From: Alphaproteobacteria bacterium
GTDB taxonomy: Bacteria; Pseudomonadota; Alphaproteobacteria; UBA7985; JAUIBT01
Direction: 5' to 3'
DNA length: 64,000 nucleotides
Assembly: GCA_030428255.1 (NCBI GenBank)
Contig: JAUIBT010000002.1
Coordinates: forward strand, 124,001-188,000
Position numbers and translations under genes: made by a program. Below the pieces are notes generated by a model, which worked only from the letters and a program-made list of their open reading frames with translations, did no database searches and was not told where the DNA came from. Shown piece by piece: positions 14,464 to 54,662 of this stretch. Position 1 is the stretch's first letter. Each line of letters begins with the position of its first letter.

Positions 14464-14476
14464 GGCAGCCTAAGGC

Positions 14477-15103
14477 GTGGCCAGATCAAACAAAGCACAG
14501 AAGCTTAACGCGCCTGCGGGCTTGCGCGTGATCGCGGGCGAGCATCGCGGGCGGCGCTTGGCCGTGCCCCAAGGGCGCGACGTGCGCCCCACCTCGGACC
14601 GGGCACGCGAGAGCCTGTTCAACATTCTGACCAATGGCTATCGCCGCCCTGATGGCACCGGCCTGCTGCCAGGCGCGCACGTGTTGGACGGCTTTGCAGG
14701 CAGCGGCGCTTTGGGGATCGAGGCTCTGTCGCGCGGCGCAACCCAGGTTACTTTTGTCGAACGAGATCGCGAAGCCCTGACCTGCTTGCGTCAGAACCTG
14801 GCGCCCTTCGGCCAAGCCACTCGGGTCATTGCAGGCGCGATTGAAGCCCTACCGCAAGCCAGTGCCGCCGCAGATCTGGTGTTGCTCGACCCGCCTTATG
14901 CTTATAGCGAGCTTGGCAGCTTGCTGGCTCAGCTCTCCGCAGGCGGCTGGCTGAAGCGCGAAACGCTGCTGGTCATTGAGCGCGACGCGCGCGCCAAAGG
15001 CGACCACCAGGACCGGGACCTTCGCGCTTTTGATGCGGCAGGCTTGCAGGTCCTGGATCGCCGCGAGATTGGCCGCAACGCGTTTTTCTTTTTGAGCAGC
15101 TAA
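14477..15103 (+). CDS. rsmD: 16S rRNA (guanine(966)-N(2))-methyltransferase
   Basis: A 208-residue SAM-dependent methyltransferase. The N-terminal RVIAGEHRGRRL and RPTSDRARESLFNIL segments are characteristic of RsmD. The SAM-binding loop DGFAGSGALGIEA starts at about residue 71, and the catalytic motif DPPY is at 138-141. The GTG start at 14477 lies 13 nt after the stop of the pseudouridine synthase, forming an rRNA-modification operon. Length fits the family. Confidence 0.94.
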   Translation: MARSNKAQKLNAPAGLRVIAGEHRGRRLAVPQGRDVRPTSDRARESLFNILTNGYRRPDGTGLLPGAHVLDGFAGSGALGIEALSRGATQVTFVERDREALTCLRQNLAPFGQATRVIAGAIEALPQASAAADLVLLDPPYAYSELGSLLAQLSAGGWLKRETLLVIERDARAKGDHQDRDLRAFDAAGLQVLDRREIGRNAFFFLSS

Positions 15104-15128
15104 CGCAAGTCGACGCAGGCCGGTCTAC

Positions 15129-15797
15129 CTACTTGCTGCTACTGCCATAGTAGACGGGCAGGCCTTCGCTTGATCCTGGGAAGGGCGGAATTGCGCTGGA
15201 TTGTTGTGCCGCAAGACTGGCGGGCACCGGATAGGGCACGCTGTGCCAAGTCCCACCATCTAGCCCCTCGCCCAGAGCCTGGTGCGCAGCTTGATCGCCA
15301 GCATACAAATAGAGCGCGCGCCCCGCGACCGCCCATTGCTGGCGGCCGTCGGGCCTTTGAATCACACCGGTTTGTCCGTTTGATTGCAAATTGGCCGCCG
15401 CGCCGGGCTCGACCAAATAGGGTGGCCAGATCCGCGCGCACTCGCCGACACAAATCGACTGCCCAAGGGGGTCCTGATCATAGACGTAGAGCGTGCGCCC
15501 TTCGGTGCTGGTCAAGCGATTTCCCAAGTGGGCAACGGCAAAGCCTGAAACGCCCTGATCTGGCACCGCGCGCTGCGCTGCTGCTTGAGAGGGCCGCGTC
15601 GCATAGGCCTGTGACGGCGCGCTGGCAGCCAGGGCCTGGCCTGCGCTCAGGGGCGCATACCCTGGCGCGGAGACGGTCCGTGAACCGCCCGCCAATGACT
15701 CGTTAGGCTGCGGCGCGCAGCCAACCAAAACCGCAAAGCCCGATGCCGCGACCAGTGCCACGCCATAGGCGTAAAGAGAAGAGGAACGCTTGATCAT
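15129..15797 (-). CDS. Lipoprotein with secreted-repeat (Lipoprotein_15) motifs
   Basis: A 222-residue predicted lipoprotein. The ATG at 15797 (MIKRSSSL) gives a signal peptide ending in the lipobox LVGC with Cys27; the longer in-frame ORF would overlap the upstream gene and bury the signal. The mature protein has a Ser/Ala/Pro/Gln-rich linker (about 28-95), then GRTLYVYDQD, a CVGECARIWPP segment and a second GRALYLYAGDQ, matching the 'secreted repeat of unknown function' family (PF03640-like), here with Cys pairing likely in the CxxxC. Function unknown. It is convergent with rsmD and just downstream of the AsmA-like gene. Confidence 0.8.
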   Translation of the reverse strand: MIKRSSSLYAYGVALVAASGFAVLVGCAPQPNESLAGGSRTVSAPGYAPLSAGQALAASAPSQAYATRPSQAAAQRAVPDQGVSGFAVAHLGNRLTSTEGRTLYVYDQDPLGQSICVGECARIWPPYLVEPGAAANLQSNGQTGVIQRPDGRQQWAVAGRALYLYAGDQAAHQALGEGLDGGTWHSVPYPVPASLAAQQSSAIPPFPGSSEGLPVYYGSSSK

Positions 15798-15867
15798 TCT
15801 GCTTCTTAGTTCGACAGCTCGGTAAAAGCGAATAACGATTGCGCTAGGCAGCAGCGTCGATCGCGGC

Positions 15868-18800
15868 TCAGCGGGTCTCGTGCGGTGAAATATTGCCGAT
15901 GATCTCGTTGAACATCTCACGCAGGATACCAGGCGCAAGCGCGGTCAGCGGATTGACGCTCACCACCGGGCCAGCGAACCCGCCATTGACCGTAAAGTCA
16001 GCGGCCAAGAAGCCCTCGCCCTTAGTGCCGGTCAAAAGCTCGCCAAACAGCGGGATTTTCTCGACCGCTTGGCCGACGAAATTAAAGGGCGCCAGGGTGC
16101 CCGCGATGCTGATCTGTTGGGCGGGCAAGTCGATCTGGCCTTCTAAAGAGATACCAACCGAAGGCCCCCCCAATTGCACGCCGCGCAAATCCAACAGGCC
16201 GCGATCAAAGCGAATATCGGCCAGCATGCCCTCCATCCAAAGGCCGCGATTGTTCAGCAGGTCCGAAATGCCGGTCAAAGACACAAGATTGAACAAGCTG
16301 GAAACAATCGGCGCGTCTACAATATAGAAGTCTTCGACCGCTAGGCTGCCAATCAGCGGGGCGGACAACAGCGGGCCTTGGGTCTGCCCCTTAAAGCGCA
16401 TGAATCCGCCGTTCATGTTCTCCCAATAGCCCAAGGTTTTCAGCAGCGCGCCTGCGTCAACGGTCTCAATAAACAGCTCGTAGCCGCCGCCGGAATTGAG
16501 CGGCGCAAAGGAAAGCTGGGCGCGCGGCACCTTGTCCTGTGTCACCGAGCTAAACGGCATGGTGCCCGCAAATTCGATGCGATGCCACAAGGTGCCGACC
16601 CGCTCGCCATAAAAAGATACGTCAGAAATGACATTGTTGGACGGCAGCAAAACGTGATCGACACGCGGCGCGTTGAAGACGATGGGCTTACCGACACTAA
16701 TCGCACCGCCGCCCGGCTGGCTGGGGCCAGATTGCTTCATGGCCTCAAAAATGGCCTTGGCGTCGAACTGGCCACCGCCCAGGCTGAAATGCAGCGCATC
16801 AGGCCGGTTTTCAGCGCGCAATCCGCGCAGCACGGTGCGCTCAAAGCGCACTTCATCAAAGGCCAGCGCCTGCCAAGCGCCGGTCTGCTCGGAAAAGTGG
16901 CCCTGCCCGCGCACGGCAAAGACCGGCTCGTTCTGCCCAGGGCGATAGGTTTGCAAGTCCAGGCCCTCGATTTGCACCGGCCGCCCGCCGCGCAACCGCG
17001 CAGCAAGATCGACCGAGCCGCGATGCCCAGCAGGCTTGCGCATGGATAAGAAGGGCAACTGGAAGCCCGCATTTTGCAGATCCGTCAGTGCGACCACGTG
17101 GCCATCACCCGCCCAATCGTCTTCATAGGAGGCTTCAAAGCTCAAGCTGCCGTCGGTCAAATAGGAGGTCAGGAAGGGCAAGTAGGTCAGGGCCTGGCTG
17201 ACGGGCAAGCGGCTCATGACTTTGACCTGGTTACGCTGCGCAGACTTGGGGTCAAAGGACCGCACGAAGGACAAGTCCAACGGCGCGCCATCAAACAGCG
17301 CCTGGCCATCGCCCTTCATGCCTTGCGGATTGATGGCAAAACGCAGGTTTCCGCCGCTGACGTTCGAACTGCCAACGATGCCTTGCCAGCCCAGCCCTTG
17401 AGCGTTGCCCTGCCCTTCGAACGCAACGTCTTGAGGGCTCATGATCTCGCCAGGGTTGGGTAGCCGCAGCGCCAAGGACACGTCGCCTGCGACCTGGCCG
17501 GTGAGCCGATCCAGCGGCAGGGTCGTGAGAATGTCCAGACCAATTTGCCCTTTGGCCAGGGTCTCCAGCAAGGGACGCAAGTGTGACTCGGCACTGCCCT
17601 GCAGACGGATTTCAGCGCGTTGATTGACCTTGTGATCGATCTGGATCGCCGCAGCGCCCCACTTGGACACCCCCGCAAAGGCCTCTGGTTTCAGCGTTAA
17701 GCTGGTTTGCTCGGTGCCGATCGTCACCTCGCCAGCGCCGCCCTCGATCAACGGCAGATGGGGCCAAGCGCGCATTTGGCCGCCGACAAAACTAAAGCTG
17801 CCTTCGCGCAAGCGGGTATCAGGGTCTTCGCTCAGATCGTAGGGCACAAATTCGTGCTGGCGAAAGCGCACATCGCGCGCCTCGCCCAACAACTCGGCCT
17901 CAGCGAACCAAGTGCGCAAGCAGGAGTCGCGCCGGCAATTGGGCCAAAATTTGAGGCCCGTTTGTACGTCGCTACGCTCGGCAACAACATCAACTTTCTG
18001 CTCGATGGCGCTGCCGTCTTTGGCTTGAAAATCAAAGTAAAAGCGACCACTGGCCTTGCTGAGGCTGCCGTCCAACAAGGGAAAGGTCAGCTTGGCCTCG
18101 TCAACCGTGAGCTGGAGCAAGCGCACATCCAGGCGCCCGCGCGCGCTGCCCTGTTCGACCAGCAAGGCTTGGCTATAGAAGGGCGCCATAGCAGCCTCAC
18201 CGCGGCCCGAATCCAGATCGAAATCCACGCTCAGCAATTGGAGATCACGACCAAATCTGAGCGTCGCGTCGCCCGAAATCGGCAAATTGACCTCGTTGAT
18301 CTGGGCGGCCAAGGGATGTAACCCCACCAAAGCCGAGGGCCGCAGCTCGCTGAACTTGAGATCAATCTCGGGCATGCCGCTGTCGGGCAGGCGCGCGGAG
18401 ACGCTCACATCTACCAACTGATTGGCCAGCGTGAGGCGCGCCGACAAGTTCGCCTGACCAGTGCCGCCTTCCAGGTTCATATCAAGCCGGGTCGCAAATC
18501 CGCCAATCGGGTTGGGCAGTTGAGGGACCTGCAAACTAAAAGCGCTGGCGGTTAGGGCCAAGCCTGCTTGGCTGCGCCGCACATCCATGGCCAGTTGCAG
18601 ATCATTTGCCGCAAAGGCGCGGTTGCCAACAGAATCGGCCATCGACAGGCGTTTGAGGCTGACCGCAATGGTGCGGAGCTGTTGAAAGAACGGTGTGTCG
18701 CGGCGCATGGCCTCAAACTGGCTCAGCGCGTGGCTCAAGATCACGTCTTGCTGGGCCTGGCTTGAGTCGGCCTGTTGGATGGCTCGTTGGGTCTCAGTCC

Positions 18801-39860: not shown

Positions 39861-41018
39861 TTGAAGGTCTTGTTGGCCATAGATGCGGTGAAGCACCCGC
39901 TGACGGGGATCGGCCGCTACACCTACGAGCTGGCCGCGGGGTTGGAGCGGCGCGGCCTTGAAAGCTTACGCTTCTTGCAGGGTGCGCGGGTCTCGCAAAG
40001 CCTAGCGAGCCAAGTTGGCGAAGCGCAGGCTGGGCTGGCAGGCACGTCCGCGCTTTCGGCCAGCGTGAAAGCAGGCCTGCGGCGGGTTCCGGGGCTGGCG
40101 CCTCTGCGAACAGCCATTGAGCAGTGGCGCATGAGCCAAGCGCAGCAAGCCTATGAGGATCACATTTTCCACGGCCCGAACTACGCCATCCCAGCGCACA
40201 TCGGCCCCAGCGTCGTGACGATCCACGATCTATCAGTCTTCAAGATGCCGGAGAGTCATCCCGCCGATCGCGTCAAGAAAGTTAGACGCCAAATTGAGGA
40301 GGCGATCAAGCGCGCCTCGGCTGTGATTACCGATACGCAGTTTACGCGCCAAGAGGTGATCGACTTCTTCGCGCTGCCGCCGGCGCGGGTTCACGCGGTT
40401 CATTTGGCCAGTTCACAGGATTTCTATCCGCGCGATGTGGTTGACCTTGCCCCGGCGCTTCGCGCGCTGGACTTGGAGCCGGGCGGTTACACCTTGTTTG
40501 TCGGCACCGTTGAGCCACGGAAAAACCTGCAACTCTTGTTGGATGCCTATGCGCGTTTACCTCTCGCGGTGCGCTCGCGCTGGCCGCTGGTGATTGCTGG
40601 CAGCGCTGGGTGGCGAAGTGGCAAGCTTCACGAGCAAATAGAACGCGCCCGGGCAGAAGGCTGGCTGAAATACCTGGGCTATGCGCCCCAGGAGCAGCTA
40701 GCGCTTGTCGTTGCGGGCGCTCGCCTGTTCGCCTTTCCCTCGCGCTACGAGGGCTTCGGGCTGCCGGTCTTGGAGGCTGCGGGCTGCGGTGTGCCTGTGA
40801 TCTGTTCGAATGCCTCTTGTCTGCCAGAGGTTGGGGGCCTGGCCTTTGCCTATCACGATCCTGACGATGGTGACGGGCTGTTCGCCCTGCTAGACCAAGG
40901 TCTAACGGACACACAGTGGCGCGAGGAGGCAAGCAAGGCTGGCCTACATCGCGCACGGGCCTTTTCGTGGGATCGCTGCGTCAGCGAAACCATTCTAGTT
41001 TATAAAACAGTGTCATAG
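39861..41018 (+). CDS. Glycosyltransferase family 4 protein
   Basis: A 385-residue GT-B enzyme. The N-terminal half begins LLAIDAVKHPLTGIGRYTYEL and the C-terminal Glycos_transf_1 domain has FVGTVEPRKNLQLLLDAY, the YLGYAPQEQL loop and FPSRYEGFGLPVLEAAGCG with the retaining E-x7-E pair. It resembles mannosyltransferases of the WbdB/MtfB kind. The likely start is TTG at 39861 with a GAGGT ribosome site; 79 nt separate it from gmd. It probably adds a mannose-derived residue during repeat-unit assembly; sugar and linkage cannot be read from sequence. Confidence 0.88.
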   Translation: MKVLLAIDAVKHPLTGIGRYTYELAAGLERRGLESLRFLQGARVSQSLASQVGEAQAGLAGTSALSASVKAGLRRVPGLAPLRTAIEQWRMSQAQQAYEDHIFHGPNYAIPAHIGPSVVTIHDLSVFKMPESHPADRVKKVRRQIEEAIKRASAVITDTQFTRQEVIDFFALPPARVHAVHLASSQDFYPRDVVDLAPALRALDLEPGGYTLFVGTVEPRKNLQLLLDAYARLPLAVRSRWPLVIAGSAGWRSGKLHEQIERARAEGWLKYLGYAPQEQLALVVAGARLFAFPSRYEGFGLPVLEAAGCGVPVICSNASCLPEVGGLAFAYHDPDDGDGLFALLDQGLTDTQWREEASKAGLHRARAFSWDRCVSETILVYKTVS

Positions 41019-41088
41019 CTTATGATCACACAGCGGCTCAACACGGAGAACAGCAAGCGGCCCGTCGCGTCGAGCGCGCACAATCCTG

Positions 41089-41097
41089 AAAGGAGGT
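41089..41097 (+). promoter_or_regulatory. Near-perfect ribosome binding site
   Basis: The sequence aaaggaggt, complementary to the 16S rRNA 3' end, lies 4 nt before the ATG at 41102. It is the strongest such site in the polysaccharide operon and fixes the start of the unknown protein that follows. Confidence 0.7.
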
Positions 41098-41101
41098 CGA
41101 G

Positions 41102-41950
41102 ATGAGCACCAAAGTTCAAATCGTGGTTGAGGGCCATGACCGGGCGAGCAAGGTGAGCGCCTTGATGGCAAGTCTGCACAGTCAGCTGCTACCTGGGGTG
41201 ACGATCAGTTATCTGACCGGTTGCATCGGTGATCCGGGACCAGCCGATTTCCAGGTGTGGCACTTTGAAGGCGAAAACCATTTTCAGCTTCGCTCGCGCT
41301 TGCCCGAGCTGGTTGGGGACTGCGAGTGGGTCGTTCTTCTTGAAGACCACAACGCCATTGATGGCGATTGGATCCCTGCGATCTTGGATGCCGTGGACAG
41401 GGCACATGCGGATACTCAAATTGTGGTGGGGCCGCTCAGCAACAAGCGCTCAACCGAGCCTTGGTCTTGGGCGAGTTTTCTTGTGGGTTCAGGCTTACAT
41501 TGGGCACCGCGCCCGCTGGTACCAATTCCGCCCAATCGTTTCAATTGTGCCATTCGGCGATCGATCTTCGGCTCCGCTCGCTTGGAGGAAGGTGAGTTTG
41601 AATTCCAAACCTTGCCAGGAATGATCGGACAAACCGAACTCGCACCCGATATGGTGGTCGATCACATTCAGCATCAAACGATAACTTCGGCACTCCAGCA
41701 TCACTGGTGCAACGGGCGCGCGGCAGCCACTTTGTTTCCGGGCGGTAGGCCCCAAGCGCTGATGCACATAAAGATCATGGGCACCAAGCGAACCACCGTG
41801 GTTAGGGATGCCATACGCGCGCATCCTGAAAGGGCGCAGTTGCCGCCTGGTACAAACGCGCGGATTTTTTGTTTGTGCCTTATGCACGCCGCTGGCTGCT
41901 GGTGGGGAACGACGTTTGGCACTGGTCGCGCCGCTTGGGAGCTTGAATAA
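41102..41950 (+). CDS. Unknown polysaccharide-locus protein with GT-A-like features
   Basis: A 282-residue cytoplasmic protein with no membrane segment. The N-terminal VQIVVEGHDRASKVSALMASLHSQ and the WVVLLEDHNAIDGDWIPAI stretch resemble family 2 (GT-A) glycosyltransferases, where an acidic DxD-like region (here EDHNAIDGD) binds metal and nucleotide sugar. Further motifs are weak, and the His-rich C-terminal region (VVDHIQHQTITSALQHHW) is not one I can place. The gene sits between two GT4 genes in the same orientation, so a glycosyltransferase role is likely but not certain. The start is set by a near-perfect ribosome site at 41089-41097. Confidence 0.6.
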   Translation: MSTKVQIVVEGHDRASKVSALMASLHSQLLPGVTISYLTGCIGDPGPADFQVWHFEGENHFQLRSRLPELVGDCEWVVLLEDHNAIDGDWIPAILDAVDRAHADTQIVVGPLSNKRSTEPWSWASFLVGSGLHWAPRPLVPIPPNRFNCAIRRSIFGSARLEEGEFEFQTLPGMIGQTELAPDMVVDHIQHQTITSALQHHWCNGRAAATLFPGGRPQALMHIKIMGTKRTTVVRDAIRAHPERAQLPPGTNARIFCLCLMHAAGCWWGTTFGTGRAAWELE

Positions 41951-41977
41951 GAGCGTGAGTAGAAGAAAGCCTCGTTT

Positions 41978-43114
41978 GTGAAGGTTCTGCAGGTTTATCG
42001 CACCTACTTTCCGGATAGCTTCGGGGGGGCCGAGGAAGCAATCCGCCAAATTTGTCTAGCAACGCAGGCCCTTGGCGTCGAAAACACCATCTTCACCCTC
42101 TCTCCAAGTCCAAAGCCCAGCACCGCCAACAGGCCTGAAGCGCGGGTCGTGCGCGCGCGGTCCTGGGCCGCGCCAGCGTCGTGCGATCTGGGTGGACCAG
42201 AGGCGTTTCGAAGGTTCCGTTCGTTGGCCGCAGAGGCCGACTTGATCCACTATTATTTCCCCTGGCCTTTCGCTGACCTCTTAATGAGAGCCACGCCGAA
42301 CACGCCCTCGGTTTTGACCTACGTCTCGGATATCGTGCGCCAGAAATGGTCCGGCCTGGCCTATGCCCCCCTGATGTGGCGCAGCCTCAATCGCATGGAT
42401 GCGATTGTCGCCAGTTGCGACGCCTATGCGCGAACAAGCCCAGTTCTTTCAAGTCCGCGCCTAAAGCCCCCGGTCCATATCATCCCCCTTGGCCTTGATG
42501 AGCCCCCTAACGCTCCCGCCGCTGATCCGCGGATTTTCGCGCGCCTCGGGTTGGCAGCAGATGAGCCCTTCATTCTGTTCTTAGGGGTCCTTCGATATTA
42601 TAAGGGGTTGCACAGCCTGCTTGATGCCGCCCCCTCGGTTCAAGGCCGGATCGTTATCGCGGGCGATGGACCGTTGCGCCCGGCGCTCACGGCGCAAGCA
42701 GAGCGGCTTGGTTTGGGTCAACGCCTTATATTTGCCGGGCAGGTCAGTGAGGGCGAAAAGCGCGCGTTGTTGACGGCGGCCCGCGCCTTCGTGCTGCCGT
42801 CACATCTGCGCTCCGAGGCCTTCGGCATGGTACTTCTTGAGGCGAGTCTCGCCTCTAAGCCCTTGGTGTCTTGTGACATTGGAACTGGAACATCCTTCAT
42901 CAATCGCGATGGAGAAACCGGATTTGTGGTGCCGCCTGAAGCGCCACAAAGGCTCGCAGATGCCATGAACGCCCTGTTGCTGGACGCGGAGCTGGCGGCC
43001 AAGCTGGGGCGTGCCGCGCGCTTGCGCTATGAGCGGGTCTTTTCTGGCCAGCCGCTGGGCCAAGCTTACAAGGATTTGTTTTCTGACGTGTTAGAAGGTC
43101 ATGCGATTTCGTGA
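41978..43114 (+). CDS. Glycosyltransferase family 4 protein
   Basis: A 378-residue GT-B enzyme starting with GTG. It has the N-terminal glycine-rich acceptor loop (YFPDSFGGAEEAIRQI), the FLGVLRYYKGLHSLLDA nucleotide-sugar region, IAGDGPLRPAL, and LPSHLRSEAFGMVLLEASLASKP with the E-x7-E pair. It is typical of WcaI/RfaG-like enzymes that build cell-surface glycans on the cytoplasmic side. It overlaps the phosphomannomutase start by 4 nt, so the two are translationally coupled. Donor sugar is unknown, perhaps GDP-mannose from the ManBC pair here. Confidence 0.88.
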   Translation: MKVLQVYRTYFPDSFGGAEEAIRQICLATQALGVENTIFTLSPSPKPSTANRPEARVVRARSWAAPASCDLGGPEAFRRFRSLAAEADLIHYYFPWPFADLLMRATPNTPSVLTYVSDIVRQKWSGLAYAPLMWRSLNRMDAIVASCDAYARTSPVLSSPRLKPPVHIIPLGLDEPPNAPAADPRIFARLGLAADEPFILFLGVLRYYKGLHSLLDAAPSVQGRIVIAGDGPLRPALTAQAERLGLGQRLIFAGQVSEGEKRALLTAARAFVLPSHLRSEAFGMVLLEASLASKPLVSCDIGTGTSFINRDGETGFVVPPEAPQRLADAMNALLLDAELAAKLGRAARLRYERVFSGQPLGQAYKDLFSDVLEGHAIS

Positions 43115-44625
43115 CAAATGCCCCAACACTCCAAGAACGGTTCGAGGCCCTTGCCTTTGGCACCAGCGGTCTGCGCGCCCTTATACCTGACCTGACGCCC
43201 CAGGCGGTCGGCGGCTTTGTCTACGCGTTCGTTGAACGCCTGCAAGCACAGGGGCTTGCGCGGGTTGGCCAAAGCGTTGCTGTGGGAGTGGATCTTCGGC
43301 CCAGCAGCCCCGCGCTTGCCGCGATGGTGAGCCACGCCTTGCAACGCTTGGGCTATGAGACGCGCTATCTAGGCCCTGTGCCGACCCCTGCCCTCGCGCT
43401 GGACTGCCTTGGCCAAGGCTGCCCCGGTATCATGGTCACCGGCAGCCATATTCCGAGCGATCGCAACGGAATAAAATTCTATACGCCTCACGGTGAAATT
43501 GAAAAGGCCGACGAAGAGGCGATGAGCGCTTGTCGCGTCGCTGCGACTTGGCTCCAGGGGTGCGACGTGACTCACGCCTTGCCACCGGTCAATCGCCAGG
43601 GTTTGGAGGCCTATCGTCAGCGCTACCTGGCTGCATTTGATCGGCAGGCCCTGCAAGGTCTGCGCGTTGGCCTGTTCCAGCACTCGGCGGTTGGTCGTGA
43701 CCTGACCGACGACCTTCTCGCAGAGCTGGGCGCGGAGGTAATAGTGCTTGGTCGCAGTGAAGACTTCGTGCCCATCGATACGGAAGCTGTGAGCGACGAA
43801 CAGCGGCGCCAGGCCAAAGATTGGTGTGACACCTACCTGCTCGATGCACTAGTTTCGACCGACGGCGACGGCGATCGCCCGCTGGTGTTCGACGACACCG
43901 GCGGGTTTATCGCGGGCGATCTGTTGGGCATGCTGGCAGCGCAGAGCCTGGCGATCACCCACCTGGCGGTGCCTTTGACTTGCAATACTGCACTGGAGCG
44001 CTCGGGCGCTTTCAAGAAGGTCCTTCGAACGCGCGTCGGATCCCCCTATGTCTTGGCGGGCATGCAAGCTTTGGCCAGCCAGGCCGATGACGACAGCGCC
44101 AATTGTCCGCGCATTGCGGGCTTTGAAGCCAATGGCGGCTTCCTGCTCGCAAGCGCCATGGCGGGGTTGGATGCCCTGCCAACGCGTGACGCGCTGCTGC
44201 CGATCTTTGCGGTGCTGGCCCAGGCGCGCTCCCAAGGGATCAGTGTGTCGGCACTGCGTAGGCGATTGCCCGCGCGTTGGACACACAGCGCGCGCCTTTC
44301 TGGAGTGCCAAGTGATCAGGCGCAAGTTTTGCTCAGCAAGCTAGCCTCGGACCCCGATTTGCGCGCGAGCCTGGGCCAGGCGGGGGGCACATGTCTTGAT
44401 GTTGATCAGAGTGATGGCTTGCGGATGACCTATGACACTGGCGACATCCTGCATTTTCGACAGTCGGGCAACGCCCCGGAATTGAGGTGTTACACGGAGG
44501 CAAGCAGCCAGCGCATCGCTCAAGCTTGGTGTTCAAACAGCCTCGCTAGGGCGCATGCGGAACTGACCAAAATCGCGGAAGCTGGTGGGTCACAGCCGTT
44601 GCAGCGCCCGTCTGACCGCCCTTGA
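43111..44625 (+). CDS. manB: Phosphomannomutase / phosphoglucomutase-family protein
   Basis: A 504-residue alpha-D-phosphohexomutase. The active-site phosphoserine loop is TGSHIPSDRNGIKF (Thr110 to Phe123, Ser112 phosphorylated), the TGSHIPxxxNG form being typical of phosphomannomutases. The metal loop is DGDGDRP (Asp251, Asp253, Asp255), the sugar loop lies near GFEANGGF, and the phosphate-binding FRQSGNAPELR is at the C-terminus. It converts mannose-6-phosphate to mannose-1-phosphate for ManC. The GTG start overlaps the previous TGA by 4 nt. It ends the polysaccharide operon. Confidence 0.92.
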   Translation: MTNAPTLQERFEALAFGTSGLRALIPDLTPQAVGGFVYAFVERLQAQGLARVGQSVAVGVDLRPSSPALAAMVSHALQRLGYETRYLGPVPTPALALDCLGQGCPGIMVTGSHIPSDRNGIKFYTPHGEIEKADEEAMSACRVAATWLQGCDVTHALPPVNRQGLEAYRQRYLAAFDRQALQGLRVGLFQHSAVGRDLTDDLLAELGAEVIVLGRSEDFVPIDTEAVSDEQRRQAKDWCDTYLLDALVSTDGDGDRPLVFDDTGGFIAGDLLGMLAAQSLAITHLAVPLTCNTALERSGAFKKVLRTRVGSPYVLAGMQALASQADDDSANCPRIAGFEANGGFLLASAMAGLDALPTRDALLPIFAVLAQARSQGISVSALRRRLPARWTHSARLSGVPSDQAQVLLSKLASDPDLRASLGQAGGTCLDVDQSDGLRMTYDTGDILHFRQSGNAPELRCYTEASSQRIAQAWCSNSLARAHAELTKIAEAGGSQPLQRPSDRP

Positions 44626-44675: not shown

Positions 44676-45359
44676 GTGTTGCTCGTGAAACCCCTCGCGT
44701 CTCAGCCCAACCTGACCGAACGCGTCTATGACGCCATCCTTGATCAAATCGCCTCCGGGGCACTGCCTGCCGGTGCCCATCTGGTGCAAGAGCAGATTGC
44801 CGAAGGGCTGGGTGTGTCGCGCCACCCCATCCAGCAAGCCATGGCGCTGCTGAAGGCTGACGGCATGGTCGAGGAAGCGGGCAAGCGGGGGCTAAGGGTT
44901 GCGCCGATCGACGGTGAGGTTATGCGTCATCACTACGCAATCCGCGCAGCACTGGATGGCCTGGCCGCACGCCTGGCCGCCGAGCGGGCGGCTCAAGACC
45001 CGAGCATGGCCACCACCTTCCGCGCACGCGCCGACAAGATCCTGCACCTCGGTACCGCTGCAGTCGAGGCGGGCGATGTGATCGAACAAGTGCGCCAGGA
45101 CATGGCATTGCACACGCTGGTCTACGACATGTCGGGCAATCCGCTGTTGCGCCGTACCGCTGAGCCCCACTGGCGCTTTTTACAGCGCGCCATGGGCGAA
45201 ATCATGCGCCTGGCCAAGCTGCGGCTCGAGATTTGGCGCCAGCACGCAGAGATCATCGACGCGATCTGTGACGGGACACCAGAGCAGGCAGAGCGTCTGA
45301 TGGTCAGCCACGACTTGGACGCCGCCGACGCGCTGCACAGCGCACTCATGGGACAGTGA
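44676..45359 (+). CDS. GntR-family transcriptional regulator (FadR/FCD subgroup)
   Basis: A 227-residue regulator. Residues about 10-75 form a winged helix (LTERVYDAILDQIASGALP, GVSRHPIQQAMALL). About 85-220 is the all-helical FCD ligand-binding domain with family residues HHYAIRAALDGLAA, YDMSGNPLLR, HAEIIDAI and a late His (VSHDLD) forming the usual metal/carboxylate site. The GTG start at 44676 directly follows an inverted repeat. The gene leads into five catabolic genes in the same direction, so it is probably their ligand-responsive repressor; FCD regulators usually bind carboxylates. Confidence 0.9.
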   Translation: MLLVKPLASQPNLTERVYDAILDQIASGALPAGAHLVQEQIAEGLGVSRHPIQQAMALLKADGMVEEAGKRGLRVAPIDGEVMRHHYAIRAALDGLAARLAAERAAQDPSMATTFRARADKILHLGTAAVEAGDVIEQVRQDMALHTLVYDMSGNPLLRRTAEPHWRFLQRAMGEIMRLAKLRLEIWRQHAEIIDAICDGTPEQAERLMVSHDLDAADALHSALMGQ

Positions 45360-45424
45360 TTGCGGTTGGTAGGGCGGCCACTTGCTGCCCTGCCTATCTC
45401 CGCCAGCTTAGGGACAACGACCGT

Positions 45425-47044
45425 ATGAATACACTTCTGACCATTGGGCAGACCCTGACAGCGCAGGCCCGACTGCAACCGAAGCGAATTGGCGCTCGCG
45501 ATTTAGAGCGCGCCATGACCTTCCAAGACTGGAACGCGCGTGCCTGCCGCCTGGCCAACGCTCTGCTGAGCCTGGGTCTCACCAAAGGCGATCGGATCGC
45601 GGTGCTGGCCTACAACCGCCTGGAGTGGGTCGAGATCTATGCTGCCGTCGTCAAGGCCGGGCTGGTGGCTGTACCGATCAACTTCCGTCTCACCGGACCC
45701 GAGGCCCAGTTCATCGCATCGGACTGCGCGGTCTCGGCCGTGATCGCTGAAGAGGCGTTGATTGAGGTCGCAGAGACTATGCGCGCAAACCTGACGGTGC
45801 CCGCCAGCTCCTATGTGCTGATCGGCGCGGATCGCGACGGCTGGCAAAGCTATGAAGGGCTGATCGAAGGAGCCTCAGACCAAGAGCCCCAGGTTGATGT
45901 CACCAGCGATGACACTTGGTGCCTCATGTATACCTCCGGCACCACCGGCAATCCCAAGGGCGCGATTCGCTCGCATCGCGGCATGGCGATGCTGGCGCTG
46001 ATGACCCAGGTCGAGCTGGGCTTGGGCCGCGAAGACAATGCCCTGTTGGTCATGCCCATGTGCCATGCGAACTCCTTGAATTTCTTTACAGCCTTCCTCT
46101 ACATCGGGGCCGAGGTCACCATCTTCTCGCGCGCCAGTTTCGATGCGGTTTTGTGCCTGCGCACGATTGGCTCGCACGGAGTCACCTTCTCCTCGCTGGT
46201 GCCCACGCACTATCAAATGATGCTCGACGTGCCCTTGGACCAGCGCGGTGATGCCACCTTTGCCAGTGTGGCCAAGCTGCTGGTCTCCTCGGCGCCCGCG
46301 CGCATTGAAACCAAGCGCGCCATCATGGAGATGTTCCCCAACTCTGGCCTGTTTGAGCTGTATGGCTCAACCGAGCAGGGCTGGGCCACCATGCTGCACC
46401 CCCACGAACAGTTCGACCACCTGGGCTCGGTCGGGCGCGAGGTCGTAGGCTCGGCCCCGATCCGCATCCTGGATGATGCAGGCAACGAGGTACCCGATGG
46501 CACACCAGGCGAGCTGTTTTCCTGCGGGCCTTATGCCTTCGAAGGCTACTGGAACCTGCCTGAAAAGACGGCCGAGGCCTTCCGGGGGGCTTACCTGTCC
46601 GTCGGTGACATGGCGCTGCGCGACGAACACGGCTTCATCAAGCTGATCGACCGTAAAAAGAATATGATCATCTCAGGCGGCGAGAACGTCTACCCGACCG
46701 AGGTCGAAGCCGTCCTTGGTCAGCATGGCGACGTGAAAGACGTGGCGGTGGTCGGGATCGCCGACGACAAGTGGGGCGAGCAGGTGGCAGCAGCGGTGGT
46801 GCTGCGCGAGGCGGCCTCAGCCACGGCGCAGGAGCTGATCGATTGGACGCGGGACAAGCTGGCTGGCTTTAAACGGCCGCGCAAGATCGTCTTCCTGACC
46901 ACTGAAGAAATGCCGCGCAATGCTACGGGCAAGATCTTGCACCGCGTGCTGAGAGACATGTTGGCCGAGCCGACCAACGCCCCAACTGCCAACACCCCAA
47001 CTGCCAACACCCCAAATGCCCACAACCAGGACGTAAAACCATGA
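45425..47044 (+). CDS. AMP-forming acyl-CoA synthetase
   Basis: A 539-residue ANL-superfamily ligase. The nucleotide motif [11 protein letters not shown] is at 169-179, followed by [27 protein letters not shown] and the C-terminal [15 protein letters not shown] with the catalytic Lys. It activates a carboxylic acid to its CoA thioester through an acyl-adenylate. The C-terminal 20 residues are an added repeat ([13 protein letters not shown]) encoded by 15-bp tandem units. The ATG at 45425 is taken; the TGA overlaps the next ATG (ATGA). As first enzyme of the cluster it probably primes the substrate of the downstream TPP lyase, SDR, ACAD and kinase; the acid is unknown. Confidence 0.9.
46974..47018 (+). 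repeat. Coding 15-bp tandem repeat (3 copies) at the end of the ligase gene
   Basis: Units caacgccccaactgc, caacaccccaactgc and caacaccccaaatgc occur at 46974-46988, 46989-47003 and 47004-47018. Each adds five residues (TPTAN-like) in frame, giving a disordered tail after the ligase domain. Confidence 0.8.
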
Positions 47045-48774
47045 CCGACATACAGGACTTGAACCGCGACGATGACAGCGTCGCAGCCTGGATCGCCAAG
47101 CTGCTGCAACAGCGCGGGATTGACCGGGTCTTCGGCCTCCAAGGCGGCCACATTCAGCCGATCTGGGACTATCTGGGCAAGCTGGGCATCCGAATCATCG
47201 ACGTCCGGGACGAGGGCGCTGCGGTGCATATGGCCCACGCCCATGCTGAGCTGACCGGCACTCTGGGACTTGCCATGGTGACCGCCGGGCCCGGCGTGAC
47301 CAACTGCGTGACCGGCATGGCCAATGCCTCGTTGGCACGCATGCCCGTGCTGCTGATTGGCGGCTGCACCTCGCGGCCTCAGGCCAATATGGGGCCGCTG
47401 CAAGACATCCCTCATGTGGACATCATGCGCCCCGTGGCCCGCTATGCACGCACCGCGCGGGTTGCTGAACAAGTCATCCGAGAGTTGGACGAGGCCATCG
47501 CTCGCGCGCAGGGGGACATGGGCGAGCCCGGACCGGCCTATATCGAAATCCCGACTGACGTTTTGCGCACCCGCGTGCCTGCCGGTCTGATCCCAGAGGA
47601 CTGGATGGCCGCGAAGTTGCCGCGCCAACCCCAGCCCGATCCGCGCGCGATTGCAGAGGCTGCAGCGGCAATCCGGGCGGCCAAACGCCCGCTGGTGGTC
47701 TCAGGGCGGGGCGCGCGGGGCGCCGGGCCAGCGATCCAGCAGTTCCTCGATGCCAGCAATGCGCTCTATCTCGATACGCAGGAAAGCCGCGGGCTGGTGC
47801 CTGCCGAGCACCCCTCGGTGGTTGGGGCGGTGCGCGCGGCGGCCATGGCGCAGGCCGACCTGGTGATCACGCTGGGCCGCAAGTTGGATTACCAGCTTGG
47901 CTTTGGCTCCCCGGCGGTCTTCCCCGATGCGCGCTTTGTGCGCATTGCCGACACCACGGGCGAGCTGATCGACAACCGACGCGGAACACCTGAAATCCTG
48001 GCTCCGGTGGACATTGCGCTCGCTGCCTTGAGCGAGGCGCTGGGCACTGACGCCGGCCAGCGGGACGAAGCCTGGCTGGCGGGTCTGCGCGCCAAGCAGG
48101 CCGAGCGGATCGACAAGAGCCGCAAAACCCCGGCCCCCCAGACTGACCCGGACGGCAAGATCCACCCCCTTGCCATCTTTGAGGCTCTGCGTGAGGTCGC
48201 CGATCCCGACTATATTGCGATCGCTGACGGAGGCGACTTGCTCAGCTTTGCACGGGTGGGCCTGTCTGCCTCCACCTACCTAGATGCAGGAGCGTTTGGC
48301 TGCTTAGGCATCGGCCTGCCCTATGCGATTGCAGCGGCGCTGGCCTGCCCCGAACGGCAGGTCATCTCGGTCACTGGCGACGGGGCCTTTGGGATCAACG
48401 CTATGGAGATCGATACGGCGGTGCGCCACGACGCCAAGGCGGTGATCATCGTGTCAAACAACGCTGCCTGGAACATCGAGCGCTATGACCAGGAGTTCAA
48501 CTATGGAGGCCGGGTTGTCGGCACCACCTTGCGCCATTCCGATTATGCGGCCATGGCCCGCGCGTTGGGCGCTTACGGCGAGCGGGTCGAGGACCCAGCG
48601 CAGCTTGGCGCAGCGATCCGCCGAGGGCTGGAAAACGCGCCAGCGGTGATCGACGTTGTAACGTCGCAGCAGGCGGTCTCGTCGGATGCGCAAAAAGGGC
48701 TGGGCTTTGTTCCCGACTATCAGGCCCTAACGGCTTGGGACGCGGCCGAGCGCAGGCGCAGGGAGGAAGCGTGA
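47041..48774 (+). CDS. Thiamine-diphosphate-dependent lyase/synthase (acetolactate synthase superfamily)
   Basis: A 577-residue TPP enzyme. The activating Glu is Glu58 (VRDEGAAVH). A Gln-Gly-Gly-His segment puts His37 21 residues before the Glu, the same spacing as His29 and Glu50 of Pseudomonas benzaldehyde lyase. The TPP-binding GDGAF starts at Gly446 and the Asn-Asn pair is at 473-474. Residues about 195-330 are the central FAD/nucleotide-fold domain. Within a CoA-ligase/ACAD cluster it may act as a 2-hydroxyacyl-CoA lyase or a carboligase instead of acetolactate synthase; no ilvN-like small subunit is nearby. Its TGA overlaps the SDR start. Confidence 0.88.
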
Positions 48775-49502
48775 TGAACTTGGACCTGACCGGTAAACGC
48801 GCGCTTGTCACCGGGGCCTCGAGCGGACTGGGCTTGCACTTCGCTGGCGTCCTAGCCGCGGCGGGGGCCGATGTCACCCTTGCCGCGCGCAGGTTGGAAA
48901 AGGTCGAGGCGGCCGCCAGCCGCTTGCCGGGAGCCACCGCAGCCGCGCTGGACGTGACCGACGCGGACTCCATCGCGGCTTTGTTTGACGGCGCGCGGTT
49001 TGACGTGGTGATCAACAATGCGGGCATCGCCTTGGACGGCAAGGCGCTTGAGACCTCGACCGAGGCCTTTCAGACCGTCATCGACACCAATCTGACCGGC
49101 GTTTTTTCTGTGGCCCGCGCGGCGGCGCAGGGCATGCAAGACCGGGGCGGCTCAATTGTCAACATCGCCTCGATCCTAGGGCTGCGGGTTGCGGGCAACG
49201 TCGCCGCCTATGCTGCCTCCAAGGCGGGCGTGCTGCAGTTGACCAAAGCGCTGGCGCTGGAGTGGGCGCGCCACGGCATTCGCGTGAATGCCCTGTGTCC
49301 GGGCTACGTCGAAACGCCGATCAACGCCGATTTTTTCGCAACCGACGCCGGGACGGCGATCATCAAGCGCATTCCCCAGCGCCGCCTGGGTCGGCTGACA
49401 GACCTTGAAGGCCCACTGCTGTTGCTGGCCTCGGACGCGTCGGCCTATGTGACCGGGGCGGTCATGGCTGTCGATGGCGGCCATCTGGTGTCCTCACTTT
49501 AA
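48774..49502 (+). CDS. Short-chain dehydrogenase/reductase
   Basis: A 242-residue classical SDR: nucleotide-binding TGASSGLG (13-20), NNAG motif, and YAASK with catalytic Tyr146 and Lys150. The C-terminal YVTGAVMAVDGGHLVSS fits the family. A GGGAGG-like site (gggagg) precedes the ATG, which overlaps the TGA of the TPP enzyme gene. Within the cluster it probably oxidises or reduces a hydroxyl group on a CoA-linked or free acid intermediate; in the lva operon the comparable SDR is LvaD. Confidence 0.9.
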   Translation: MNLDLTGKRALVTGASSGLGLHFAGVLAAAGADVTLAARRLEKVEAAASRLPGATAAALDVTDADSIAALFDGARFDVVINNAGIALDGKALETSTEAFQTVIDTNLTGVFSVARAAAQGMQDRGGSIVNIASILGLRVAGNVAAYAASKAGVLQLTKALALEWARHGIRVNALCPGYVETPINADFFATDAGTAIIKRIPQRRLGRLTDLEGPLLLLASDASAYVTGAVMAVDGGHLVSSL

Positions 49503-49512
49503 GGAATTGACC

Positions 49513-50721
49513 ATGGATTTTACAATCTCACCCAGAATCGAGGACTACCGCGCCCGCATCGCGCGCTTTGTCGAGCAGGTCATCCTGCCGCTGGAGGCGG
49601 ACCGCGCCAGCTATGACGCGCACGAAAACATTCGAACCGAGCTGTTGGACGACCTGCGCGCCAGGGCCAAGGCCGAAGGGCTGTGGTGTTTGCAGCTTAA
49701 GCAAGAGACCGGCGGTCAGGACTTGGGGCTCATGGGAATGGCGGTTTGCTATGAGGAGATGAACCGCTCAATCTTCGGCCCGGTCGTCTTCAATGCCGCC
49801 GCACCTGATGACGGCAACATGCAGGTGCTGGAAAAGGTTGGCACTGAGGCTCAGAAAGCCGAATGGCTGCAACCCATCGTGCGCGGGGATGTGCGCTCTG
49901 CCTTTGCCATGACCGAACCCGCGCCGGGCTCAGGCTCTGATCCGGGCGGCATGATGCTGACCACGGCCCAGAAGGTGGGCGACAGCTACGTTGTGCGGGG
50001 CCGCAAGTGGTTCATCACCGGGGCCGAAGATGCCGACCACTTTATCTTGATCGCCCGCACCTCTGACGACCCGCGCAAGGGGCTGTCGGCCTTCCTGCAC
50101 CGCCGCGACACGCCCGGCTTTCGCATCGAGCGGCGCATTCCGATCATGGGCCCCGAGGAGCACGGCGGCCACTGTGAGGTGGTGTATGAAGACATGGTCA
50201 TTCCGGCTGAAAACCTTCTGATGACCGAGGGCGATGGCCTGAAGCTGACCCAAATTCGCCTTGGCCCGGCCCGCCTGACCCACTGCATGCGCTGGCTGGG
50301 CTTGTCCAAGCGCTGTGTGGAAATCGCCCATGAGTACGCACAGAACCGCTTTGCCTTCGGTGAGCGTTTGTCGAAGCGAGAAAGCATCCAAATGATGCTG
50401 GGCGATCTGGCCATGCAAATTGAGCTGGGCCGCATGCTGGTAATGAAAGCCGCCTGGGAGCTGGAGCGCGGCGGTTTCGCGCGCAAGGACGTGTCCATGG
50501 CCAAGGTGCATGTGGCCAACTTGCTGCACAAGGCCGCCGACACCGCCATCCAGATCAACGGCGCGCGGGGCTATTCCAAGGACACGCCGCTGGAGTGGAT
50601 CTATCGCTACGCCCGCCAGGCGCGCTTGGTGGACGGCGCGGACGAAGTGCACAAAATGGTCCTATACCGCAATGTCGAGAAGGAAGGGCGCGACTTCTGG
50701 GCCTGGGATGTGGGCGCATGA
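49513..50721 (+). CDS. Acyl-CoA dehydrogenase family protein (ACAD10/11-like)
   Basis: A 402-residue flavoprotein with the N-terminal helical, beta-barrel (AMTEPAPGSGSDPGG) and C-terminal helical (RFAFGERLSKRESIQMMLGD) parts of acyl-CoA dehydrogenases. The C-terminal DTAIQINGARGYSKDTPLE segment is FAD- and substrate-binding. It resembles the ACAD10/ACAD11 and LvaC group and is coupled by an ATGA overlap to an APH-like kinase, the same partnership that in ACAD11 is a single fused protein. ATG at 49513 has an AAGGA site. Confidence 0.9.
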   Translation: MDFTISPRIEDYRARIARFVEQVILPLEADRASYDAHENIRTELLDDLRARAKAEGLWCLQLKQETGGQDLGLMGMAVCYEEMNRSIFGPVVFNAAAPDDGNMQVLEKVGTEAQKAEWLQPIVRGDVRSAFAMTEPAPGSGSDPGGMMLTTAQKVGDSYVVRGRKWFITGAEDADHFILIARTSDDPRKGLSAFLHRRDTPGFRIERRIPIMGPEEHGGHCEVVYEDMVIPAENLLMTEGDGLKLTQIRLGPARLTHCMRWLGLSKRCVEIAHEYAQNRFAFGERLSKRESIQMMLGDLAMQIELGRMLVMKAAWELERGGFARKDVSMAKVHVANLLHKAADTAIQINGARGYSKDTPLEWIYRYARQARLVDGADEVHKMVLYRNVEKEGRDFWAWDVGA

Positions 50722-51731
50722 GTGAGACCGATTTCGATCCGAGCCAGCTCGTCCGGTATCTCGACGCGCGGTTTGGCGACCAGGCGCCGCTGCACATAGA
50801 GCGGATCGCAGGCGGGCAATCCAACCCCACCTATTTCGTGACCCGTGGTGGCGAACGCATGGTGTTGCGCAAGCAGCCCAACGGCCCGATCCTGCCTGGC
50901 GCTCATGCGGTGGACCGGGAGTTTCGGGTGATCTCGGCGCTGCACCCTACGGGCGTACCCGTACCCCGCCCACTTGTCTTTTGCGACGATGACAGCGTGT
51001 TGGGCACGCCCTTTTATCTGATGGAGCGCGTCGATGGCCGGGTCTTTGCCGATGGGGCGCTGAGCGAGGCCGATCCCCAGGAGCGGCGCGCGCTGTGGGA
51101 TGGCCTGGCCGATGCCATGGCCGCCATGCACGCGGTGCGCCCCGAGCAGGTCGGGCTGGAGGACTTCGGACGGCCTGGCAACTATTTCGAGCGCCAGATC
51201 ACCCGCTGGTCGCGCCAATGGCAGGACAGCGACCACCCAGCGATCCCCGAGCTCGACCGCCTCACCGATTGGCTGGTCGCCAGTCAGCCCCATGACGATG
51301 GCCGCGTCAGCCTGGCACACGGGGATTTCCGTATGGGCAATGTGCTGTTCCACCCCAGCGAAGCGCGCGTGGTCGCGATCCTAGACTGGGAGCTGTCGAC
51401 CCTGGGCCACCCGCTGGCCGATTTGGGCTATTGCTGCATGGCATGGCACACCAGCCCGGACGAATACGGCGGCATCCTTGGGCTGGATCTGGCGGCGCTG
51501 GGTCTCCCCTCAGAAGCGCAGTTTGTGGCACGCTATATGCAGCAGACAGACGGCATGGCACCCCTGACCACCTTTCACAAGGTCTTCGCCCTGTTCCGCT
51601 TCGCGGTCATTTGGGTCGGGGTTGCGGATCGGGTGCGCGCGGGCAATGCCGCCGGCACCAATGCGGCGCGCAATGCGGGTATGGCCGAGCGCTTGGCCCG
51701 CCGCGGGGTCGCACTGATGTCCGCGAGCTGA
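50718..51731 (+). CDS. Aminoglycoside-phosphotransferase-like kinase of the ACAD10/11-LvaA type
   Basis: A 337-residue APH-fold phosphotransferase. It has the N-lobe start IERIAGGQSNPTYFV, the catalytic HGDFRMGNVLFH loop with Asp203 and the metal-binding DWELSTLGHPLADLGY with Asp223. The latter long motif is characteristic of kinases paired with acyl-CoA dehydrogenases (ACAD10/11, LvaA), not antibiotic-resistance enzymes. Established knowledge: LvaA of Pseudomonas putida phosphorylates 4-hydroxyvaleryl-CoA before elimination. Here it overlaps the ACAD gene by 4 nt and closes the cluster. The substrate is inferred only. Confidence 0.88.
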   Translation: MSETDFDPSQLVRYLDARFGDQAPLHIERIAGGQSNPTYFVTRGGERMVLRKQPNGPILPGAHAVDREFRVISALHPTGVPVPRPLVFCDDDSVLGTPFYLMERVDGRVFADGALSEADPQERRALWDGLADAMAAMHAVRPEQVGLEDFGRPGNYFERQITRWSRQWQDSDHPAIPELDRLTDWLVASQPHDDGRVSLAHGDFRMGNVLFHPSEARVVAILDWELSTLGHPLADLGYCCMAWHTSPDEYGGILGLDLAALGLPSEAQFVARYMQQTDGMAPLTTFHKVFALFRFAVIWVGVADRVRAGNAAGTNAARNAGMAERLARRGVALMSAS

Positions 51732-52020: not shown

Positions 52021-52105
52021 TGGTGCCCTGGAGAAGACTCGAACTTCCACGACCGAAGTCACACGTACCTGAAACGTGCGCGTCTACCAATTCCGCCACC
52101 AGGGC
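52021..52105 (-). tRNA. tRNA-Leu (anticodon CAG)
   Basis: The minus strand folds into a class II tRNA: acceptor arms GCCCTGG/CCAGGGC, D-arm with GCGGAATTGGTAGACGC, anticodon stem CACGT/ACGTG with loop TTCAGGT (anticodon CAG), a long variable arm and TTCGAGT T-loop. The 3' CCA is encoded. Length 85 nt. Confidence 0.95.
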
Positions 52106-53320: not shown

Positions 53321-54019
53321 ATGCTTGAACTGATAATCTTTGACATGGATGGCGTGCTGCACGATTCAGAAAGCCTCAGTGCCGTTGCGGTCAGCGCCTG
53401 CCTGGCTGAGCGCGGCATTGCCATCACGCCAAAGGAAATCGAGCTGCGCTACGGCGGTAAGACCTTTGAAGGTATCACCGCTGGTCTTGAGCAAGACATG
53501 GGGCGCTCTTTGGGGGCCCAGGCTGCTGAGGAATTTGGCACCCGCTGGGTGTCTTTGTTTGAAGAGCAGCTAACCGCAACGCCGCAAATCGCGGGCTTTC
53601 TGACCGACTTGCAGGGCGCGGGATTGCAGATTTGCGTGGCCTCCAATGCCTCACGGCCTGAGATTGATGCCGCCTTGGGTATCTCTGGCCTGGACGACTT
53701 CTTTGCCCTGGATCATCGCTTTTCGGGCATGGACATGCCCAACCCGAAACCTGCCCCCGACCTGCATCTGGCCTGCCTGGCCCATTTCGGCCTTGCGCCC
53801 CATCAGGCGCTGATCTTTGAGGATTCCTTGACCGGCGCTGGCGGCGGGATTGCGGCAGGTGTGGCCGTGGCGGGCTATGTCGGAGTCCACCCGCAGCCTC
53901 AGACCCATGCTGAGAAGCTCTTGGCCAGCGGGGTGACAGCCTGCTTCGACGACTGGGCCATGGTGCCGCGTGATAAGGCCAGCCTCAGCAAGCTGATCCA
54001 GGCCGCGCATGCCCGCTGA
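53321..54019 (+). CDS. HAD-superfamily hydrolase, beta-phosphoglucomutase/phosphatase-like
   Basis: A 232-residue HAD enzyme. Motif I is FDMDGVLHDS (nucleophile Asp8, acid Asp10), a helical cap follows, motif II is near VASNAS, motif III Lys in NPKPAPD and motif IV FEDSLTGAGGG. It would dephosphorylate a small metabolite or act as a mutase. It overlaps a second HAD gene by 11 nt, which appears to be a paralogue from tandem duplication. Confidence 0.9.
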   Translation: MLELIIFDMDGVLHDSESLSAVAVSACLAERGIAITPKEIELRYGGKTFEGITAGLEQDMGRSLGAQAAEEFGTRWVSLFEEQLTATPQIAGFLTDLQGAGLQICVASNASRPEIDAALGISGLDDFFALDHRFSGMDMPNPKPAPDLHLACLAHFGLAPHQALIFEDSLTGAGGGIAAGVAVAGYVGVHPQPQTHAEKLLASGVTACFDDWAMVPRDKASLSKLIQAAHAR

Positions 54020-54662
54020 GCTGATTATTTTCGACATGGACGGCGTTCTGACCGACTCAGAGCGCCTGATGACCGGCCTGGTAGCCAACGTACTGTGCGA
54101 GCTGGACTACCCCATCACCGAGGCCGAGGTGGTCGAGCGTTTCATGGGTGTCGCCACAGCCGTTCAGCTCGATATCCTGCGCCAGGAGCGCTCTGAGGCC
54201 TTTGTGCAGGCCTATAAGGAGCGGGTTGGCCCGCGCTGGCGGCAGGTCATGGCCCGCGAGCTTAGGCCCGCCCCCGGCGTTCACGATTTGCTGGCGCGCC
54301 TCGATCAGCGCGAGCGTCGTCGCTGCGTGGCCTCGAACGGCAGCCTAGCCCACATTCATGAGTCGCTGGCCCTGGTCGATCTGGAGGGGCAGTTTGCGCG
54401 CCATCACCGCTTCTCAGGCACCGATGTCGCTCGGCCCAAGCCCGCACCCGATCTTCACCACCACTGCCTGCGCATCTTCGATATGAAGCCGGACCAAGCG
54501 CTGGTGTTGGAAGACAGCGTTACGGGCCTAAAGGGAGCGGTGGCGGCTGGTATCGAAGCCTGGGGCTTCGTTGGCCTGCATCCGCGACCAGAACAGCAGG
54601 CCGACGCCCTGCTGGCCGCTGGTGCCGCGCGCGTTCTTTGGTCGTGGGACGAACTGGAGTGA
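54009..54662 (+). CDS. HAD-superfamily hydrolase, tandem paralogue
   Basis: A 217-residue HAD enzyme with motif I FDMDGVLTDS (Asp9, Asp11), VASNGS as motif II, RPKPAPD as motif III and LEDSVTGLKGAV as motif IV. It resembles the preceding gene in length and motifs but differs in the cap, so the pair probably have different substrates. Phosphoglycolate or sugar-phosphate phosphatase activity is possible; not resolvable here. Confidence 0.9.
   Translation: MPAELIIFDMDGVLTDSERLMTGLVANVLCELDYPITEAEVVERFMGVATAVQLDILRQERSEAFVQAYKERVGPRWRQVMARELRPAPGVHDLLARLDQRERRRCVASNGSLAHIHESLALVDLEGQFARHHRFSGTDVARPKPAPDLHHHCLRIFDMKPDQALVLEDSVTGLKGAVAAGIEAWGFVGLHPRPEQQADALLAAGAARVLWSWDELE

Follow-up and report, generated by a model that had tools for sequence, protein, structure and literature searches.

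A conserved operon of six genes, made up of two joined modules (i.e., GntR-ligase-HACL and SDR-ACAD-APH), was found in a 64,000-nucleotide stretch of an alphaproteobacterial contig, referred to here as the window. We lean towards reading it as a composite operon for the catabolism of short-chain hydroxy or oxo acids, in which two parallel modules would draw on a shared acyl-CoA pool. Evidence for this reading comes from the predicted identity of each gene product, from the distribution of the two modules among other genomes and from the fate of the locus in a second species of the same genus.

Organization and probable regulation of the operon

All six genes were located at 44676-51731, on the same strand and in the same order as first described in the sequence-only reading, and Pfam family matches agreed with the earlier assignment of each gene (Table 1). 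The earlier description of overlaps at most junctions was fair, if slightly generous, since overlap was seen at three of the five junctions and was of the ATGA type at only two. Thus, 4-bp ATGA overlaps occurred between ligase and TPP enzyme and between ACAD and APH, a 1-bp TGATG overlap between TPP enzyme and SDR, and gaps of 65 bp and 10 bp between GntR and ligase and between SDR and ACAD, respectively. The region directly 5' of the operon (39861-44625) contained glycosyltransferase-like genes and a phosphohexomutase-like gene. A tRNA-Leu(CAG) gene on the opposite strand (52021-52105) lay approximately 290 bp beyond the operon end, and two tandem HAD-like phosphatase genes, overlapping and mutually related, were noted at 53321-54662.

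Table 1. Genes and candidate operator of the operon (window positions).
Feature	Position	Strand	Supporting match or character
Candidate GntR operator TTGAATTCAGACTTCAGAATTCAA	44647-44670	.	Perfect inverted repeat with 14-bp spacing of its two GAATTC boxes
GntR/FCD transcriptional regulator (GTG start)	44676-45359	+	Pfam FCD 1.2e-18, GntR 1.9e-14
AMP-forming acyl-CoA ligase, FadD/ANL type	45425-47044	+	Pfam AMP-binding 1.3e-78
TPP-dependent short-chain 2-hydroxyacyl-CoA lyase (HACL, AcHACL family)	47041-48774	+	NCBIfam NF058623, PDB 7pt1
SDR, likely oxo/hydroxyacyl-CoA oxidoreductase	48774-49502	+	Pfam adh_short_C2 2.8e-56
ACAD10/11-LvaC-type acyl-CoA dehydrogenase (ACAD)	49513-50721	+	Best PDB match mouse ACAD11 8v3u
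APH-fold hydroxyacyl-CoA kinase, ACAD11 type (type A)	50718-51731	+	PDB 3dxp 308 bits

The candidate operator, separated by 5 bp from the start codon of GntR, was the sole 14-bp-spaced GAATTC pair in the window's genome. A GntR homologue occupied the equivalent position in many HACL loci, and for 47 of 54 such homologues GAATTC was present in the 160 bp lying upstream, compared with a background of 0.065 per 180-bp region, the boxes often showing a 7- or 14-bp period. The GntR/FCD protein is thus the probable regulator of the operon through this candidate site, and gene order suggests that the SDR-ACAD-APH trio is probably under the HACL-type regulator in this genome. A wider GntR regulon was rejected, as the remaining hit in the genome had unrelated spacing and was at chance level.

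The TPP enzyme and the acyl-CoA ligase

By its sequence, the TPP enzyme belongs to the actinobacterial short-chain HACL family and is not an acetolactate synthase. Thus, it scored 1058 bits against NF058623 (2-hydroxyacyl-CoA lyase, cut-off 600), and the nearest solved structure was AcHACL of Actinomycetospora chiangmaiensis (PDB 7pt1, 727 bits). Scores against the acetolactate synthase model TIGR00118 (236 bits, cut-off 538) and the AlsS models (224-246 bits, cut-offs 510-551) were far too low for a true acetolactate synthase. In AcHACL, E493 is the acid/base catalyst and Q128 binds the substrate carbonyl, while L127 and I492 together with a C-terminal lid restrict the acyl group to about C5 (PMC8760513). 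In alignment, all four residues were identical in the TPP enzyme and the lid was conserved; E493, Q128 and L127 were invariant across 104 aligned sequences. Members of this family cut, for example, 2-hydroxyisobutyryl-CoA into formyl-CoA and acetone. The earlier proposal of C-C bond chemistry on a CoA-bound hydroxy acid is supported by the model score, the closest structure and the retained residues.

Homologous HACLs (51-59% identity) were found at three loci (L162, L165 and L166) in clusters with a B12-binding subunit, 2-hydroxyisobutyryl-CoA mutase and the PaaK-type 2-HIBA-CoA ligase HCL; at L166, where this was checked, the mutase scored 995 bits to 4r3u and HCL 798 bits to 6hdw. By annotation, a HACL on the Methylibium petroleiphilum PM1 plasmid lies in a similar mutase/HCL-type cluster. 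The position of these relatives is evidence that the family acts on short, branched 2-hydroxyacyl-CoAs. An HcmA-type mutase was not evident in the window's genome, where only a 45% identical mutase was found in a 698-codon frame, and this is probably methylmalonyl-CoA mutase.

The ligase was of the FadD/ANL type, and its identification as an orthologue of HCL was ruled out. Its best PDB match was FadD5, HCL was absent among the 60 PDB matches listed, and HCL was not evident elsewhere in the window's genome, the closest HCL-like protein being 33% identical. Of 80 named HACL loci, at least 75 had this same ligase adjoining the lyase gene. In the operon, one ligase is common to both modules, with hydroxy or oxo acids as its putative substrate class.

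These results bear on the direction of the lyase reaction. HACL reactions are reversible (PMC8760513), and Desulfococcus biacutus is proposed to handle acetone by the condensation of formyl-CoA with a ketone or aldehyde to a 2-hydroxyacyl-CoA (discussed in PMC7176365). However, the near-constant presence of a ligase next to HACL points to substrates that enter as free acids, and the window's genome showed no evident 2-hydroxyisobutyryl-CoA mutase by which a condensation product could be used, so that operation of the lyase in this direction appears very improbable.

The kinase, the dehydrogenase and the SDR

The kinase-ACAD logic of the lva and ACAD10/11 type, recognized earlier, was upheld by residue signatures of both proteins. 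Besides the match listed in Table 1, the kinase matched the ACAD11 kinase domain (238 bits, about 37% identity) and retained both the catalytic residues D220 and N225 and the CoA-contacting residues R86 and R176 of ACAD11. These two arginines were not conserved in the two DUF6285-linked (type B) kinases aligned. Kinases of two types accompanied these ACADs, and a DUF6285 gene adjoined none of 26 type A kinases (i.e., the type found in the operon) but 12 of 16 type B kinases. From their size, which is about that reported for LvaB (12 kDa, PMC6692424), and their position next to the kinase, DUF6285 proteins are likely relatives of LvaB; no literature on DUF6285 was found in open-licence PMC. Searches for DUF6285 in the operon and in the whole genome were both empty, in agreement with the earlier failure to see an LvaB-like protein, and this absence fits a type A kinase, since that type was never found with DUF6285.

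A phosphate cradle, a catalytic Asp and a motif proline distinguish ACAD10/11 and LvaC (PMC12440821, PMC11342911). The aligned operon ACAD kept the cradle residues R626, H634 and R637, the shared R631, C635, M636, the catalytic D753 and the motif Pro, whereas the R.GP.R...HC.R cradle motif was missing in three ACADs taken from these loci as controls. The operon enzyme is thus predicted to eliminate phosphate rather than to oxidize. The SDR, which precedes ACAD in modules both linked to and separate from HACL, likely serves in an LvaD-like role as an oxo/hydroxyacyl-CoA oxidoreductase.

On a quick LG+G4 tree from which LvaC itself was left out, the operon ACAD fell in a separate 44-row clade (SH-aLRT 100), apart from the clade of mouse ACAD11. 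As identity to ACAD11 and its kin was only about 35-38%, the hydroxyl position on the substrate may not be C4. Kinase and ACAD might instead target another hydroxyl, e.g., one that is tertiary or at C3 in a branched acyl-CoA, as part of a single branched-chain pathway (2-HIBA-like or isoprenoid-derived), and the separation of the operon clade from mouse ACAD11 and bacterial kin is consistent with this, as is the presence of an ACAD-APH pair near related HACLs that occur with mutase and HCL (i.e., loci of the L162, L165 and L166 type). Nevertheless, all phosphate-cradle and catalytic residues characterized for 4-phosphoacyl-CoA were kept, and a different target hydroxyl seems improbable.

Conservation and repeated linkage of the two modules

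Conservation of the neighborhood, which the sequence-only reading had suggested looking for in other alphaproteobacteria, was evident in varied genera. Thus, 80 named HACL loci were sampled (69-82% identity), and ACAD with a kinase downstream was present in 13 and SDR also in 12 of those, the linked loci belonging to Stappia, Jannaschia, Roseibacterium, Silicimonas, Salaquimonas, Ruegeria, Paracoccus, a Methylobacterium MAG and other MAGs. The GntR-ligase-HACL arrangement recurred in dozens of genomes, and the SDR-ACAD-APH trio was missing from most of the 80 loci. Most ACAD orthologues, in turn, belonged to HACL-free SDR-ACAD-(ligase)-APH modules, often with their own ligase; some of these adjoined thiolases and TRAP transporters on marine plasmids, a setting that entry of the product into beta-oxidation would lead one to expect.

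The recurrence of GntR-ligase-HACL and the 13 ACAD-bearing loci place the gene arrangement far beyond chance. At the genome level, ACAD was present in 14 of 23 HACL genomes compared with 3.2 expected (hypergeometric p 5e-8, relatedness ignored). HACL linkage required eight changes on the ACAD tree, of which at least six were forced by starred branches, a count that does not separate gain from loss; the modules have thus been joined or separated repeatedly. The clearest independent case of HACL/ACAD-kinase pairing is the betaproteobacterial plasmid of Azoarcus KH32C, on which HACL, ligase and SDR (55%, 54% and 56% identical to those of the window, respectively) accompany a non-orthologous ACAD from a different clade (38%) and a kinase of type B that has DUF6285 beside it. 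The trio's own ligase was present in none of 18 HACL-linked loci compared with 13 of 47 others (p 0.013).

Several linked clusters contained additional genes. In Jannaschia seohaensis, a second upstream copy of GntR-ligase-HACL-SDR (L049:352-4343) looks broken, GntR and HACL each being matched in two pieces and SDR being truncated. The clusters of Paracoccus sediminis and a Rhodobacteraceae MAG (L058 and L088, about 14000-17500) add an Ohr/OsmC protein and also hold a class III PHA synthase (PhaC and probable PhaE). In Ruegeria marina and a Marivita genome (L108 and L118), a PQQ alcohol dehydrogenase system with an ABC transporter lies 5' of ligase-HACL-SDR. Such a dehydrogenase was rejected as the acid source in the window's genome, where none scored above cut-off.

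Parallel or sequential action of the modules

In G117, the genome of another species of the same genus, a true HACL was not found, and the GntR, ligase and HACL genes were matched only by short fragments of DNA. The ACAD-APH pair was retained, whereas most of the SDR gene was gone and only a degraded remnant similar to its C-terminal part was left upstream. ACAD was 92% identical to that of the window (dN 0.047, dS 1.17, dN/dS about 0.04), and the pair is thus under strong purifying selection, which indicates that kinase and ACAD are useful without HACL. This pair also borders sugar-nucleotide-like genes. The tRNA-side flank was on a different contig from ACAD-APH, and the locus has therefore probably been rearranged.

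The sequence-only reading had kinase and ACAD processing the product of the TPP enzyme. This part of the proposal was not supported, because HACL frees a product without CoA while ACAD10/11 kinases require the CoA ester and do not use the free acid (PMC12440821), because the modules are separable in most genomes and because G117 keeps ACAD-APH alone. Repeated linkage and a shared ligase could equally mean one substrate requiring both modules, and a sequential pathway through which a single dihydroxy or hydroxy-oxo acid passes can be drawn. For example, a 2,5-dihydroxy acid would be shortened by HACL, leaving a 4-hydroxy aldehyde; oxidation and a second activation by the same ligase would come next, followed by phosphorylation and dehydroxylation. 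The gain or loss of linkage on the ACAD tree, the single ligase with the trio's own missing from linked loci, the one operator-like site ahead of all genes and the alcohol and aldehyde dehydrogenases of some linked clusters are consistent with such a pathway; on the other hand, the window operon contains no aldehyde dehydrogenase, the lyase product carries no CoA, and either module is common alone. On balance, sequential action is considered unlikely, and parallel routes fed by one ligase are favored by G117, by the independence of the modules and by the CoA-free lyase product.

In the parallel scheme, the GntR/FCD regulator, acting on the candidate GAATTC operator, would govern one acyl-CoA ligase and both modules. 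In the first module, HACL would split 2-hydroxyacyl-CoAs of up to about C5 (2-hydroxyisobutyryl-CoA as prototype) into formyl-CoA and a ketone or aldehyde, and formate would then pass to formate dehydrogenase, which is present in the window's genome. In the second, SDR would interconvert 4-oxo- and 4-hydroxyacyl-CoA, the kinase would form 4-phosphoacyl-CoA, and ACAD (with FAD, the Asp base and the Arg/His phosphate cradle) would eliminate phosphate, the resulting 2-enoyl-CoA being a substrate for beta-oxidation. The two modules would thus address a common problem, i.e., a hydroxyl at C2 or C4 that ordinary beta-oxidation handles poorly.

Comparison with known systems and significance

No description of the combination of HACL with kinase and ACAD genes was found in open-licence PMC literature. 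The lyase-HCL cluster of A. chiangmaiensis (PMC7176365, PMC8760513) has in common with the window operon a GntR regulator, an AcHACL-family lyase in which the catalytic and size-limiting residues are identical and the lid is conserved, and an adjacent CoA ligase, but the window ligase is FadD/ANL and not PaaK-type, mpdB and mpdC are lacking and SDR-ACAD-APH is added. The Pseudomonas putida lva operon for levulinate, as outlined in PMC6692424 citing Rand et al. 2017, comprises the same four functions (ligase, SDR, phosphate-eliminating ACAD and APH kinase); by comparison, the window operon has no LvaB, an ACAD11-type kinase, an ACAD of a clade apart from ACAD11, an extra HACL and a GntR regulator. 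Mammalian ACAD10/ACAD11 (PMC12440821, PMC11342911), compared by sequence, share kinase residues D220, N225, R86 and R176 and ACAD residues R626, H634, R637 and D753 with the window enzymes; the latter are separate proteins, the kinase being about 37% and the ACAD about 35% identical to the mammalian sequences. HACLs that belong to the window family are also found in some 2-hydroxyisobutyryl-CoA mutase (hcm) clusters (L162, L165, L166 and L218), but neither an HcmA-type mutase nor HCL was evident in the window's genome.

The short-chain HACL family is known from work on an actinobacterium and from its use in formyl-CoA chemistry; these findings extend it to a wide set of proteobacteria whose loci come with a likely regulator and a candidate operator. 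Systems of the lva type that are free of LvaB may rely on an ACAD11-type kinase with its own CoA-contacting arginines. If the linked genes did form one linear pathway, with HACL and phosphorylation-dependent dehydroxylation acting on the same skeleton of a short dihydroxy or branched hydroxy acid, which we doubt, this would be a new degradation route with new intermediates. HACL has been paired repeatedly by evolution with dehydroxylation of the ACAD10/11 type, the mammalian counterparts of which were assigned only in 2024-2025, and this repeated pairing predicts an environmental substrate class in a form that can be tested.
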